Shown piece after piece: positions 57,087 through 62,180 of a DNA stretch of 62,180 bases. The stretch comes from Sandaracinaceae bacterium. Lineage in GTDB: Bacteria; Myxococcota_A; Polyangia; Polyangiales; Sandaracinaceae. Every line of letters starts with the position of its first letter. Position 1 is the stretch's first letter. Both the position numbers and the translations under genes were made by a program. The stretch covers positions 1 to 62,180 of the forward strand of contig JAHBWG010000057.1 of the NCBI GenBank assembly GCA_019637095.1. Direction: 5' to 3'. The notes under the pieces were generated by a model, which ran no database searches, was not told the DNA's origin, and was given only the letters and a program-made list of their open reading frames with translations.

Positions 57087-58967
57087 ATGCGGACGACGAC
57101 GAGCTTGGCTTGCATGGTGGTGTTGCTGGTGGCCTGCGATGGCGGAGGCGGGACCGACGCGGGGGCGGGGCTCGACGCCGCGACCCCGGGCGAGGACGCG
57201 GGCGCGCGCGACGGCGGCGAGGCCGACGCGGGCGAGCGCGACGCCGGGCCGGCCCAGGACGCGGCGGCCCCGGGCGACGCGGGCGCGGCGCCCGGCCGGT
57301 TGGGCGATCCGTGCACCGAGAGCGCGGACTGCGAGAGCGGGCTCTGCTTCCCGACCGCGTTCGGCGAGGCGCGCTGCACCGAGGCGTGCACCACCCCGGG
57401 CGACTGCGTCGCGGGCTGGGACTGCGGGCCCTTCCGCGGCGCGATGGCCTGCACGTGCGCGACGAGCGCCGAGCGGTGCGACGGCCTCGACGACGACTGC
57501 GACGGCGCGATCGACGAGGACGACCCCTCGCTGATCGGATGCGCCACCGGCCAGCTCTGCACCGGCGGCGCGTGCAGCTGCCCGGCCGAGCGCATGTGCC
57601 CCGACGCGATGGGCGTGGTCTCGTGCGTGGACATCGATCGCGACCCGCGCAACTGCGGGCGCTGCGACAACGACTGCGGCACGCGCGGGCTCTGCACGGG
57701 CGGGGTGTGCTGCACGCCGAGCGCCGAGCGCTGCAACGGGCGCGACGACGACTGCGACGGCGCGGTCGACGAGGACACCGCCGCCGAGTGCGCGGCGTCG
57801 GGCGGCTTCTGCGTCGGGGGGAGCTGCTCGTGCCCGGCGGAGCGCCAGTGCGGGGCGGTGTGCGCCGACCTCGATCGCGATCCCGCGAACTGCGGCGCGT
57901 GCGGCACGCGCTGCGGCGCGGGCGAGGTCTGCGCCGCCGGCGCGTGCTGCGCGTCGGCGGGCGCGCCGGTCGACATCCTCTTCATGGTCGACAACTCGAA
58001 TTCCATGGCCGAGGAGCAGGCGTCGCTCGCGGCCTCGCTGCCCCGCTTCGTGCGGGTGCTGACCACCGGCGACCTCGACGGAGACGGCCGGCCCGACGCG
58101 ACGCCGGCGCGCGACCTCCAGCTCGGCGTGATCACGAGCGACATGGGCGTCGGCGGCTTCATCGTCCCGACGTGCAACGACCCGGCGTTCGGCGACGACG
58201 GGATCCTGCGCACGCAGGGCCGCACGGACTTGCCCGGGTGCCGCGCGACGTACCCGGCGATCCTGCGCTTCGACCCGGCCGGGACCGTGTCGCCCGCGGA
58301 CTTCGCGAGGGACTTCGCGTGCGTCGCGACGGTGGGCACCGGCGGGTGCGGGTTCGAGCAGCAGCTCGAGGCCTCGCTCAAGGCGGTGACGCCGAGCACG
58401 TCGGCGACGCGCTTCTTCCGCGACACGACGGGCCACGGCGACGGCGCGAACGCGGGGTTCCTGCGCGCGGGCTCGATCTTCGTCAACGTCCTGTTGACCG
58501 ACGAGGAGGACTGCTCCTCCGCGATGCCCGCGGTGTTCGATCCCGCGAGCACGACCTACACCGCCGACCTCAACCTGCGCTGCTTCACCTACCCGGAGAC
58601 GATGCACCCGCTGTCACGGTACGTCGACGGACTGCTCGCGGTGCGGCGCGAGCCGCGCGATCTCGTGTACGCGCCGATCGTCGGGATCCCCGTCGACCTC
58701 GAGGGCGCGAGCTACGCGGCGATGCTCGCCGATCCGCGGATGACGGAGCGGGTCGATCCGAGCTTCCCGCATCGGCTCGCGGCGAGCTGCGACGTGCCCG
58801 GTCGCGGCACGGCGTTCCCGCCGCGGCGCATCGTGCGCGCGGCGGAGGCGCTCGAGCGCCGCGGGGCCTCCACGGTCGTCGGCTCGATCTGCCAGGAGAG
58901 CTACGACGGGACGGTCACGGCGATCCTGTCGCGGGTGCTCGCCCGCCTCGGCGCGCTCTGCATGTGA
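57087..58967 (+). CDS. MopE-type repeat lipoprotein with VWA-like domain
   Basis: 626 aa. Signal TTTSLACMVVLLVACDGGGG with lipobox (LLVAC), then a long Asp/Ala/Gly linker (DAGAGLDAATPGEDAG). Residues 70-285 are Cys-rich with two MopE-type motifs (CDGLDDDCDGAIDED, CNGRDDDCDGAVDED) and related CGxCxxxC units (NCGRCDNDCG, NCGACGTRCG). From about 290 it has a von Willebrand A fold: DILFMVDNSNSMAEEQASLA carries the DxSxS-like MIDAS. Later strands are FVNVLLTDEEDCSSA and LQLGVITSDMGVGGF. A surface metal-binding adhesin or ligand-binding protein is likely. TAGAGC, a weak -10, ends 6 nt before the ATG. Confidence 0.88.
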   Translation: MRTTTSLACMVVLLVACDGGGGTDAGAGLDAATPGEDAGARDGGEADAGERDAGPAQDAAAPGDAGAAPGRLGDPCTESADCESGLCFPTAFGEARCTEACTTPGDCVAGWDCGPFRGAMACTCATSAERCDGLDDDCDGAIDEDDPSLIGCATGQLCTGGACSCPAERMCPDAMGVVSCVDIDRDPRNCGRCDNDCGTRGLCTGGVCCTPSAERCNGRDDDCDGAVDEDTAAECAASGGFCVGGSCSCPAERQCGAVCADLDRDPANCGACGTRCGAGEVCAAGACCASAGAPVDILFMVDNSNSMAEEQASLAASLPRFVRVLTTGDLDGDGRPDATPARDLQLGVITSDMGVGGFIVPTCNDPAFGDDGILRTQGRTDLPGCRATYPAILRFDPAGTVSPADFARDFACVATVGTGGCGFEQQLEASLKAVTPSTSATRFFRDTTGHGDGANAGFLRAGSIFVNVLLTDEEDCSSAMPAVFDPASTTYTADLNLRCFTYPETMHPLSRYVDGLLAVRREPRDLVYAPIVGIPVDLEGASYAAMLADPRMTERVDPSFPHRLAASCDVPGRGTAFPPRRIVRAAEALERRGASTVVGSICQESYDGTVTAILSRVLARLGALCM

Positions 58968-58998: not shown

Positions 58999-60159
58999 AT
59001 GGTGTACTGCCAGGAGTGCGGGGCCTCCAACACCGCTGACGCGCGGTTCTGCAACATGTGCGGCGCGGCCATCGCGCAGGCCGGCGAGCCGGGCGGTCCG
59101 ATCGGCGAGGACGCGCCGCCCGCGGCGACGATGCGCGGGCACGACTCTCCGTCGGACCGCCCCTCGGCGCCAGCGCCGCCTGCCCGCGAGGGCGCGTCGG
59201 ATCGCGCCGCGCTGAGCGGGCCGACGCCCCCGCCGATGTCGCTCGACGTCTCGACGGTCAGCCTCTCGGCGATCGGCGTGCGCTCGCGCGGGAGCGCGTG
59301 GGCGGTGCTCATCGGGGTCGCGCTCGCGTTCGTCGGCCTCGGCGCGGTCGGGATGTGGCTGGCGCTGACGATGAACGACGAGGAGCCCGCGGCGAGCGCC
59401 GAGGAGCCGTCGCCGACCGTGCCGACCGAGGTGGACGTCCCCGAGGTCCCCGAGGGCGCGGACGTCGAGGGCGCAGAGGTCGCGGCTGGCGAGGGCGGCG
59501 CGACGACGCCGACCGGCCGCGGCGCCACGAGCGGGCGCTCGTCCGGCACGACGAGCGGCGGCGCGAGCGCGAGCACCGGCGGGGGGCGCTCGACCGGCAC
59601 GAGCGGCGGCAGCGGCAGCGCCGGCGGCAGCGCGAGCACCGGCAGCGGCGGCAGCGGCAGCACCGGCAGCACCGGCAGCACCGGCGGCAGCGGCAGCACC
59701 GGCGGCAGCGGCAGCGGCAGCGGCGGCACCGGCGGCAGCGCGAGCACCGGCGGCACCGGCGGCGGCAGCGGCGGCAGCACCGGCGGCAGCGGCGGATCGG
59801 GCTCGGCGCCGGACTGGGACTCGATGCAGCAGCAGCAGCAGGACGACCGCGACTTCGAGATGAACCTCTACACGGGCCGCGTGCGCCAGTTCATCCAGAC
59901 CTACTACATGCGCCGCGCGGCGACGTGCTTCGAGATGGCCTCGCGGAACAACCCCAACGTGCGCGGCCGCGTCGTCATCGCGTTCACCATCCTCGCCGAC
60001 GGCGCGACGCGCGAGGCGCGCGTGAGCGCGAACGAGACGGGCATCGACTCGATCGGCGCGTGCCTCGCGACGCAGGTCGGCTCGTGGCGACTGCCCGCGC
60101 CGCCCGAGGGCGAGGCGCCGCTCGCGATGTCGATGCCCTTCCGCGGCGCCACCGGCTGA
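58999..60159 (+). CDS. Zinc-ribbon membrane protein with AgmX/PglI C-terminal domain
   Basis: 386 aa. A zinc ribbon starts the protein (YCQECGASN and ARFCNMCGAA). A membrane helix lies near 100-125 (AWAVLIGVALAFVGLGAVGM). Residues 160-275 are a Gly/Ser/Thr low-complexity linker built from GGSGS/STGG units, followed by a Gln run (QQQQQ). The C-terminal 100 residues match the AgmX/PglI domain (RVRQFIQTYYMRRAATCFEM, GRVVIAFTILADGATREARV then SANETGIDSIGACLATQVGS), related to TonB C-termini. Similar proteins act in myxobacterial gliding and envelope transport. It probably spans the periplasm. Confidence 0.9.
   Translation: MVYCQECGASNTADARFCNMCGAAIAQAGEPGGPIGEDAPPAATMRGHDSPSDRPSAPAPPAREGASDRAALSGPTPPPMSLDVSTVSLSAIGVRSRGSAWAVLIGVALAFVGLGAVGMWLALTMNDEEPAASAEEPSPTVPTEVDVPEVPEGADVEGAEVAAGEGGATTPTGRGATSGRSSGTTSGGASASTGGGRSTGTSGGSGSAGGSASTGSGGSGSTGSTGSTGGSGSTGGSGSGSGGTGGSASTGGTGGGSGGSTGGSGGSGSAPDWDSMQQQQQDDRDFEMNLYTGRVRQFIQTYYMRRAATCFEMASRNNPNVRGRVVIAFTILADGATREARVSANETGIDSIGACLATQVGSWRLPAPPEGEAPLAMSMPFRGATG
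59600..59810 (+). repeat. GGCAGC-type microsatellite coding for a Gly/Ser/Thr linker
   Basis: Runs of GGCAGC, GGCAGCACC and CGGCGG repeat units. The region encodes the flexible linker of the AgmX-type protein and is prone to length change. Confidence 0.7.
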
Positions 60160-60830: not shown

Positions 60831-61814
60831 ATGCATCCTCCGCCGCGTCGCACTTTCTTGCTGCGGAGCGAGGCCGTGCTCGAGTGCCCGTGCTGTCTGT
60901 TGACGAGCGAGTCGACGCAAGATGTCTTGCGATTCTTCTGGCCCGATCACGACGTGCGCGCGGTGCTGCGCCCCGACGGCCCGTGCTCGTTCTGCGAGGC
61001 CAGCGCGCGCTGGCTCGACCCGGCGCGCCTCGCCGCCGAGCGCGACGAGGTGCTCGCGCACGCGCGGCGGCCAGTGCTGCTCGCGTACTCGGGCGGCAAG
61101 GACAGCACGGCGGCGCTCCATCACCTGCGCCGCGATCTCGGCGTCGAGACGCTGGCGGTGCTCTTCGACAACGGCTTCATCCCGCCCGCGGTCCTCGAGT
61201 ACGCGGCGCGCATCACCGCCGAGCTCGGCGCGGAGCTCGTGATCGACCGCGAGGCCCCCGGCCGCGAGCGCCTGCGCGCCGGCTTCGCGCGGCGGCTGAG
61301 GGTGGCGTTCCGCGGCCCCCGCAACGACGTCTGCGCCGTGTGCAGCAAGACGTTCCTGCGGCGCTTCCACCGCATCGCGCGCGAGCGCGGCGCGGACACG
61401 ATCGTGCTCGGCAACAACTTCTGGGCGCACAGCCCGCACACCTCCGGCGGCGCCGCGCCGCCGTGGATGACCGCGAGCTGGTCGCGCGAGCTCGCGGACG
61501 GCGCGACGCTCTGGCACCTGAACCTCCCGTTCGCGAGCCGCATCACGCGCGCCCGCACGCGCGAGATCCTCGACGAGATCGGGTTCCACGACGCGAGGTT
61601 CACCGGCTACACGTCGAACTGCGTCTTGAGCGACTTCCAAGATCACGTCCGCGCGCGCGACGGGCAACCGACGGACTGGGGGCGCGAGTACCTCTCGCTC
61701 GAGGTGAGCGCGGGCTACCTCACGCGCGCCGAGGCCCTCGAAGAGCTCGGCCGCGCGCGCGGCGCCGCCGACGCGGCGCTGATGGCCCGGATCGAGCGCG
61801 CGCTCGCCCCGTGA
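60831..61814 (+). CDS. PP-loop ATPase with cysteine motifs
   Basis: 327 aa. The PP-loop signature LLAYSGGKDSTAALHHLRRD (about 83-102) marks an ATP pyrophosphatase that adenylates a substrate. Paired cysteines lie before (CPCCLL, CSFC) and after it (CAVCSK, residues about 166-171), as in TtcA/TtuA-like tRNA thiolation enzymes and in sugar N-transferases of the WbpG type. Residues VLGNNFWAHSPHTSGGA and NLPFASRITRARTREILDEI follow. The acceptor could be a tRNA, a sugar or a peptide. ATG 60831 has a G-rich stretch ahead. A TATCCT at about 60747-60753 suggests a leader of roughly 75 nt. Confidence 0.85.
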   Translation: MHPPPRRTFLLRSEAVLECPCCLLTSESTQDVLRFFWPDHDVRAVLRPDGPCSFCEASARWLDPARLAAERDEVLAHARRPVLLAYSGGKDSTAALHHLRRDLGVETLAVLFDNGFIPPAVLEYAARITAELGAELVIDREAPGRERLRAGFARRLRVAFRGPRNDVCAVCSKTFLRRFHRIARERGADTIVLGNNFWAHSPHTSGGAAPPWMTASWSRELADGATLWHLNLPFASRITRARTREILDEIGFHDARFTGYTSNCVLSDFQDHVRARDGQPTDWGREYLSLEVSAGYLTRAEALEELGRARGAADAALMARIERALAP

Positions 61815-61915
61815 AAGCGCGGCGAAACTCGGCATCGTTGCGCGCGCGCGTCTTCGGCCGGTAGCATCGACGCCGCTCGGGTGCGGCTCGGGCGTCAGAC
61901 TGCGTTGGAGGAGCG

Positions 61916-62180
61916 ATGGCCGAGAGCGACGAGCAGGGACGGAACGAGACGAAGACCCTCGACGAAGAGAGCATCGTGACCGAGCGCGTCGGGCGACGCT
62001 CCGCGGTCGCCGCCATCGGCGGCACGCTGCTCGGCGGGCTCGCGCTCGCGATCGCGGCGCCGGCCGAGGAGGCGCAGGCGCAGACGGACAGCGACGGCGG
62101 GCCGAACGCCGACGCCGCCGGCCGCGGCCGCACCGGGATCACCGACAGCGACGGCGGCCGCAACGCGGATCGCGCCGGCC
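61916..62180 (+). CDS. Exported DSDGG-repeat protein (3' truncated)
   Basis: Starts at ATG 61916 after TTGGAGGAGCG, a good ribosome-binding site, and runs off the window after 88 residues. The N-terminal part is acidic, then ERVGRRSAVAAIGG and LLGGLALAIAAPAEEAQAQ give a twin-arginine-like or Sec signal peptide. The mature part begins tandem units TDSDGGPNADAAGRGRTGI and TDSDGGRNADRAG. Such DxD/N-rich repeats may bind calcium or serve as a repeated core that is modified. The full length and repeat number lie beyond the window. Confidence 0.7.
   Translation, partial: MAESDEQGRNETKTLDEESIVTERVGRRSAVAAIGGTLLGGLALAIAAPAEEAQAQTDSDGGPNADAAGRGRTGITDSDGGRNADRAG

Follow-up and report, generated by a model that had tools for sequence, protein, structure and literature searches.

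A truncated gene for an exported repeat protein

What is the Asp-rich repeat protein whose gene starts at the very end of a myxobacterial contig, and which enzyme, if any, acts on it? The window, that is, the whole stretch of DNA analyzed (G000:C151:1-62180), takes in the entire contig of 62,180 bases, from a Sandaracinaceae genome. A forward-strand reading frame at 61916-62179 begins with ATG, is preceded by GGAGGA, and stays open for 88 residues to the window edge; since the contig ends at 62180, at the window's last base, the gene is cut by the assembly and its 3' part is missing from this copy. A sequence-only reading had described tandem repeats after a signal-like N-terminus, in a gene running on past the window. 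Both points are borne out, by a twin-arginine-type leader followed by two TDSDGGxNAD units within 61916-62180, and by the frame that is still open where the contig stops. Export, also part of that description, agrees with the apparent signal of twin arginines plus a hydrophobic stretch. In protein order, residues 14-24 (TLDEESIVTER) precede GRR and the hydrophobic stretch, after which come one complete and one cut repeat unit. The features are as follows.

61907..61912, + strand: putative ribosome-binding site GGAGGA of the repeat gene (from sequence, with its role presumed)
61916..62180, + strand: repeat-protein (precursor) gene, 5' 88 codons, cut by contig end (leader and repeat HMM matches)
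61955..61987, + strand: leader element TLDEESIVTER, spanning residues 14-24 and preceding RR (alignment of 58 rows; JmjC co-occurrence)
61994..62080, + strand: twin-arginine signal, RR and hydrophobic stretch, residues 27-55 (from sequence; possible AQA cleavage site)
62084..62140, + strand: repeat unit 1, TDSDGGPNADAAGRGRTGI (sequence and repeat HMM)
62141..62180, + strand: repeat unit 2, TDSDGGRNADRAG..., cut by contig end (matches unit 1 at 32 of 40 bases)

The leader HMM scores this ORF at 50.5 bits versus 5.7 for the next ORF of the window, and the repeat HMM at 43.2 versus 5.6 bits, from models that both contain the window gene's paralogues and, for the leader, a training set that may include the window gene itself. 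No shuffled ORF reached 15 bits with the repeat HMM or 10 bits with the leader HMM. Compared with G002:C48, the nearest of three homologues compared, 55 of 81 amino acids are identical, with the codon changed at 23 of those 55. The 68 nucleotide differences fall 21/14/33 at codon positions 1/2/3, and the excess at the third position (33 of 68) is expected of a coding gene. Among the DNA matches read, no contig of the genome besides those of the paralogues continues the missing 3' end. Judging by its nearest homologues, the full protein would have about 108 aa and three units.

The genome encodes four leader/repeat proteins, namely the product of the window gene and three complete paralogues with 3, 4, and 6 repeats.

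Paralogue on contig C121: 108 aa, 3 units
Paralogue on contig C145: 147 aa, 4 units, bounded by Cys
Paralogue on contig C42: 201 aa, 6 units

After these four proteins, the leader model finds two weak matches in the same genome (7e-5 and 4e-4), which start at model position 18 or later. By eye, from translations, the neighbors of the paralogues are isopropylmalate/isocitrate-dehydrogenase-like and PilZ-like, carbon-nitrogen-hydrolase-like, and alpha/beta-hydrolase-like and YgiQ-like. No PP-loop or JmjC gene was seen beside the three complete paralogues, in flanks of about 1.5 kb or more.

The PP-loop neighbor is not a conserved partner

The sequence-only reading had proposed the adjacent PP-loop enzyme as a possible modifier of the repeat protein. 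This gene, P0003, lies at 60831-61814 (+), 101 bp upstream of the repeat gene; its product has an SGGKDS motif and gives weak matches, far below cut-off, to LarE and WbuX models. Among 96 related genomes, and among 377 from the phylum, it was found just once, in each case in the source genome, whereas 22 of the 96 relatives have the repeat family at E<1e-6 and 30 have it at E<0.01. In evolutionary terms, then, the two genes show no linkage. Because the repeat protein has homologues in genomes lacking the PP-loop gene, and P0003 is also absent from the listed flanks of the three complete paralogues, we rejected it as the partner and regard that part of the earlier proposal as refuted.

The product of P0003, an orphan among the 377 sampled genomes of the phylum, has a Cys-rich N-terminus (CPCC, CSFC); the gene may be a recent import.

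A JmjC oxygenase is encoded beside many repeat-protein genes

One ORF family does recur beside the relatives' repeat genes. It encodes a JmjC protein of about 395 amino acids, matched by PF08007 (E 1e-26 and 1.8e-29) and present at 24 of 52 loci retrieved with a repeat or PP-loop gene as anchor, a set that includes two (L097 and L098) that are the window's own end. Residues H145, D147, K160, and H208 are invariant in all 36 aligned rows, which leaves the HxD...H iron site intact; K160 we take to be the 2-oxoglutarate lysine of a JmjC enzyme. Available text of one source gives HxD/E...H as the motif of 2-oxoglutarate oxygenases (PMC4295552). By sequence and by model alike, the nearest solved structures are those of NO66 and MINA53. 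The predicted structure (pLDDT 95) aligns with NO66 over 387 residues, spanning model residues 1-395, with Z 32.7, rmsd 4.3, and 25% identity, so that by the model the whole chain is of NO66 type, with helical and winged-helix parts after the JmjC domain (domain names for ROX enzymes as in the accessible part of PMC6006756). The partner enzyme is, by its predicted fold, a JmjC/ROX-fold Fe(II)/2-oxoglutarate oxygenase. NCBIfam supplies no family name for any of the 36 proteins, and neither they nor the repeat proteins have a specific Pfam or NCBIfam model beyond JmjC_2. The JmjC proteins have no evident signal at their N-termini (by eye), which suggests that modification would precede export.

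A scan of the genome collection with the JmjC alignment found at least 567 confirmed relatives, and the best 80 were taken for locus analysis. A leader/repeat protein is encoded at 72 of these best 80 loci, in five phyla, 67 being recognized by HMM and five (L148, L151, L173, L175, L202) by eye. The count depends on method: the repeat HMM is negative at 39 of the 80 and a loose regular expression positive at 49, and leader HMM plus inspection gives 72. At 43 of the 67 HMM loci the nearest precursor gene precedes the JmjC gene on the same strand, with a median gap of 91 bp; at 21 it is divergently transcribed, and at three it lies downstream. The eight loci with no precursor nearby (L169, close to a contig end, and L152, L149, L157, L166, L170, L195, L213) are scattered singly over the JmjC tree (eight changes for eight rows), as expected if genes have moved or act in trans. 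Four more distant JmjC loci (L133-L136) have no leader gene.

Precursor type follows the JmjC tree, with 5 changes versus 29.2 in shuffles, an approximate figure since L148 and L151, despite their related repeats, are labeled "other", and since near-copies inflate it. The tree is midpoint-rooted and has L126 on a very long branch.

The single JmjC gene of this kind in the source genome lies on a separate contig (G000:C137:51906-53081), next to a kinase-like gene and adjoining none of the four repeat-protein genes, so any action of its product on them would be in trans; a gene for a dedicated candidate modifying enzyme is thus linked to the precursor at 72 of the best 80 loci and unlinked in the source genome. 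In the tree it falls in a group with L151, where precursor and JmjC gene are divergent and the precursor is the nearest of the three window-gene homologues compared, and with L152, whose genome carries its precursors on contigs other than that of the JmjC gene.

No third partner family was found in more than 8 of the 63 JmjC loci outside Maricaulis, and each such set comes from one lineage; JmjC itself is at 63 of 63, accompanied by JmjC antisense frames. In a separate clustering, of all 80 loci, the 14 largest clusters were listed, the rest being Maricaulis-type synteny. An ATP-grasp, peptidase, or transporter partner was rejected on this evidence, which for ATP-grasp is the recurrence of gene families and not a match to an ATP-grasp model. 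Of the earlier proposal of a multi-core substrate for side-chain linking enzymes, the idea of a multi-core substrate with a modifying enzyme fits the family-wide JmjC linkage, and that of side-chain linking (ATP-grasp) finds no support.

Some loci call for separate remarks. Near-identical JmjC genes (branches 0.01-0.02) in L155, an Anaerolineae MAG, and L156, an alphaproteobacterial MAG, likely reflect a binning error or very recent transfer. L169, whose contig is binned as Gammaproteobacteria, has a JmjC gene that groups with Acidobacteriota and is likely mis-binned. In Bacteroidota, the tail of the L202 protein is very different, rich in Tyr, Ser, and Asp, and L213 is without a visible precursor.

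Leader and JmjC gene co-occur across genomes

Among the 96 relatives, 23 have a JmjC match at E<1e-60; the leader (E<1e-8) is found in 22 of these 23 versus none of the other 73, where the best match scores 8.7e-6 (G034). All 22 genomes with the repeat protein at E<1e-6 are within the 23, G065 being the exception. In six further relatives the JmjC match is weaker, at E 1e-20 to 1e-42; five of these six group apart in the tree and the sixth, L126, is unsure. In a second sample, 196 genomes from the order of Pararhodobacter aggregans (the Rhodobacterales sample), the JmjC gene is patchily distributed, in 14 genomes, and the leader (E<1e-8) occurs in 13 of the 14 versus 0 of 182, with a best match of 1.2e-7 among the latter. 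Fisher's test, with relatedness ignored, gives 9e-21 for the relatives and 2e-19 for the Rhodobacterales sample; the thresholds for "strong" were chosen after the score gap was visible, and the leader model (alignment A4) has Rhodobacterales rows, to which some of the test genomes probably contributed. Two genomes with a strong JmjC match, G065 and G433, had no detected leader gene.

In JmjC-negative genomes, most of the listed leader matches are confined to the Tat part of the model, beginning at position 13 or beyond. Six were read out, among them each sample's best match; five of the six extend into the model's first part. By eye all six are ordinary Tat enzymes or binding proteins, two of them MsrP-like, with more than 250 residues after the leader, zero or one D-x-D, and no Asp repeats.

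JmjC matches number three in each of two genomes of the window's family, G005 and G008; in both, two of the three are distant (28-33% identity) and the precursors are on other contigs.

A two-part leader and variable repeats

The homologues share a leader with T-L-x-D-x-x-I-x-T before RR (alignment A4, 58 rows). Twin arginines are present in 58 of 58 rows, which had been cut around RR. The Tat-target model TIGR02811 matched two of nine relatives' precursors, below cut-off; the window protein itself has twin arginines followed by a hydrophobic stretch, as a Tat substrate should. The first part of the leader is a candidate recognition element for the JmjC oxygenase. Tat enzymes of JmjC-negative genomes (L230, L232) that are MsrP-like by eye have a similar element, TLTENDITPE or TLTENDVTPE, before RR, so the element by itself is not diagnostic; the combination of element, short Asp-repeat protein, and JmjC gene is. 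The precursor leader may derive from an MsrP-like signal or share a docking role with it.

Beyond the leader the precursors vary. Acidobacteriota have SDPDKKK-like repeats, and other alphaproteobacteria ADSD or GSDYDP repeats, with the leader kept in both. Maricaulis precursors adjoin the JmjC gene but either score low on the leader model, at 12-20 bits, or do not match it, and the predicted structure of one (12 rows, pLDDT 39) is uninformative. By a loose pattern, the longest arrays (L171, L181, L208) run to 12-14 units. A sequence logo of the repeat is not used as evidence, its columns being fixed by the regular expression that gathered the units. For 13 precursors (4 + 9), neither Pfam nor NCBIfam has a family above cut-off. 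A lipobox-like motif follows the signal in 26 of 95 unique precursors, and judging by it some are probably lipoproteins. Together with the RR signal, which points to Tat, and the lack of any recurrent protease or transporter gene, this makes an envelope protein more likely as product than a small excised peptide.

Which residue would be modified?

D-x-D is present in all 93 mature parts, 79 of 79 that bear GxGR and 14 of 14 that do not. In the 14 divergent precursors its enrichment is modest, 77 occurrences versus 54 +/- 5 in 200 shuffles (maximum 67). Leader ORFs away from the JmjC gene, chosen by leader match, have D-x-D repeats in 14 of 14 cases at 11 loci (nine in the Rhodobacterales sample and two in G003 and G007 of the window's family), so substrates in trans are not rare.

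The strongest competitor to Asp hydroxylation, one we nevertheless think unlikely, is the same module with a JmjC enzyme that targets another residue (Arg of GxGR, Ser/Thr, or Asn) or performs a different oxidation. ROX relatives act on Arg (YcfD) or His (NO66, MINA53), according to the available portions of PMC6006756 and PMC4295552, and Arg makes up 0.112 of the residues of the common repeat. In contrast with D-x-D, however, Arg is absent from 4 of the 14 divergent precursors, His from 5 of them and from 37 of the 79 common ones, and Asn from 4 of the 14, which disfavors Arg or His as a universal target. None of the 93 mature parts lacks Ser either, and Asp, though the best candidate, is therefore not the only one.

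A proposed two-component module and its alternatives

We consider it probable, from comparison of sequences, that the repeat protein is the exported multi-repeat substrate of a two-component modification module. Its leader would comprise the T-L-x-D-x-x-I-x-T element and the twin-arginine signal. The cytoplasmic JmjC oxygenase, of ROX (NO66/MINA53) fold, would probably recognize the element and hydroxylate residues of every repeat unit, with the Asp beta-carbon within D-x-D as the likeliest site; Tat would then export the product as a soluble or lipid-anchored envelope protein. In the source genome one JmjC protein would act in trans on four proteins, that of the window included. We infer the enzyme's action on the repeat proteins, the Asp target, the order of events, and Tat export from a leader, repeats, adjacency, genome-wide co-occurrence, and intact iron site that the sequences establish, and from a modeled fold. 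Function is the least certain part; our guess would be tighter binding of a metal, calcium or iron, at the cell surface. A wider reading, which we hold to be rather doubtful, is that of a cross-phylum class of Tat-exported poly-(beta-hydroxyaspartyl) repeat proteins, with a dedicated JmjC enzyme, that bind iron or calcium as surface or secreted proteins, a ribosomal counterpart of beta-hydroxyaspartate siderophores and of the hydroxylated calcium-binding EGF repeats.

Two further explanations dispense with modification of the repeats. The repeats could form a plain, unmodified calcium-binding module at the surface, and the D-x-D-x-G spacing does resemble that of calcium loops. We judge this improbable, as no calcium-binding model (EF-hand or TSP3 type) of Pfam or NCBIfam matched the 4 + 9 precursors and the JmjC linkage would be left unaccounted for. 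Still less probable is that the JmjC protein is a ribosomal oxygenase like NO66 or YcfD whose link to the repeat protein is regulatory or accidental. The fold match to NO66 along the whole chain is what such an enzyme would display; however, the sporadic distribution in the Rhodobacterales sample is odd for a ribosomal modifier, and against it also stand the adjacency to and co-occurrence with one leader type across phyla and the lack of a leader gene at all four distant JmjC loci. Finally, a multi-core graspetide-like substrate, modified by the neighboring PP-loop enzyme or an unseen ATP-grasp ligase, has in its favor the adjacent PP-loop gene and a multi-repeat graspetide with a 2-oxoglutarate oxygenase from Corallococcus (PMC13097080, in part), but is scarcely credible here and is refuted as a family-wide mechanism by the rarity of the PP-loop gene and the lack of a recurrent third family.

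Relation to known systems

An Asp-hydroxylating two-gene module would differ from each of the systems it resembles. To our knowledge, Asp would be a new target for the ROX/JmjC fold. The available parts of two sources have the known ROX enzymes hydroxylating His or Arg of ribosomal proteins (PMC6006756, PMC4295552). Like NO66/RIOX1, MINA53/RIOX2, and YcfD, the partner enzyme has JmjC_2, HxD...H, and, by model, the whole-chain fold; unlike them it is patchy in distribution, only 25% identical, and has as its genomic partner an exported repeat protein instead of a ribosomal one. BipG and PbsQ, of the biphenomycin-type RiPPs, likewise pair a JmjC or cupin-like 2-oxoglutarate oxygenase with a ribosomal precursor; as far as the accessible text goes, the biphenomycin JmjC enzyme acts on Orn, and both are tailoring enzymes clustered with MNIO, radical SAM, arginase, and protease genes (PMC12707348, PMC12257519). 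Here, in contrast, JmjC is the sole recurring enzyme, and a Tat-type leader is followed in the precursor by repeats.

Bufferins, oxazolins, and DAG-RiPPs also combine an export signal or lipobox with a cytosolic modifier and may be repetitive, but in the portions available they have Sec signals, mainly Cys targets, and an MNIO with a partner protein (PMC12452194, PMC12636315), whereas the repeat proteins described here have a Tat-type leader, Asp-rich cores, and JmjC. Corallotide, a graspetide with five repeats, shares repeated cores, a 2-oxoglutarate oxygenase, and a myxobacterial source, and SmaO is a precedent for Asp beta-hydroxylation of a precursor peptide; the same partly accessible source places a graspetide synthetase in both clusters and assigns the corallotide oxygenase to PF13640, not JmjC_2 (PMC13097080).

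A literature search whose coverage left out most subscription papers returned no account of a module of JmjC and Tat-leader repeat proteins. Exported Asp-rich repeat proteins with a JmjC enzyme of their own are thus apparently a widespread and undescribed group, and the module would belong with the signal-peptide-bearing, enzyme-modified ribosomal products as a candidate RiPP. It gives a probable non-ribosomal substrate class to one branch of bacterial JmjC enzymes, which reaches Myxococcota, Pseudomonadota, Acidobacteriota, and Planctomycetota, and Bacteroidota by one locus read by eye. It also suggests that as few as two genes may suffice to make hydroxylated repeat proteins for export, and would extend signal-peptide-bearing modified precursors from Sec/MNIO to Tat/JmjC systems.

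Other genes of the window

Two more forward-strand genes of the window deserve mention. The product of 58999-60159 (+) has a zinc-ribbon-like start, a transmembrane stretch, a long Gly/Ser/Thr low-complexity linker, and a C-terminal domain, and by eye looks like a myxobacterial AgmX/TonB-like protein. That of 57087-58967 (+), 626 aa long, is rich in Cys, contains CDGLDDDCDGAIDED-like repeats, and, by eye, may have a VWA-like domain.
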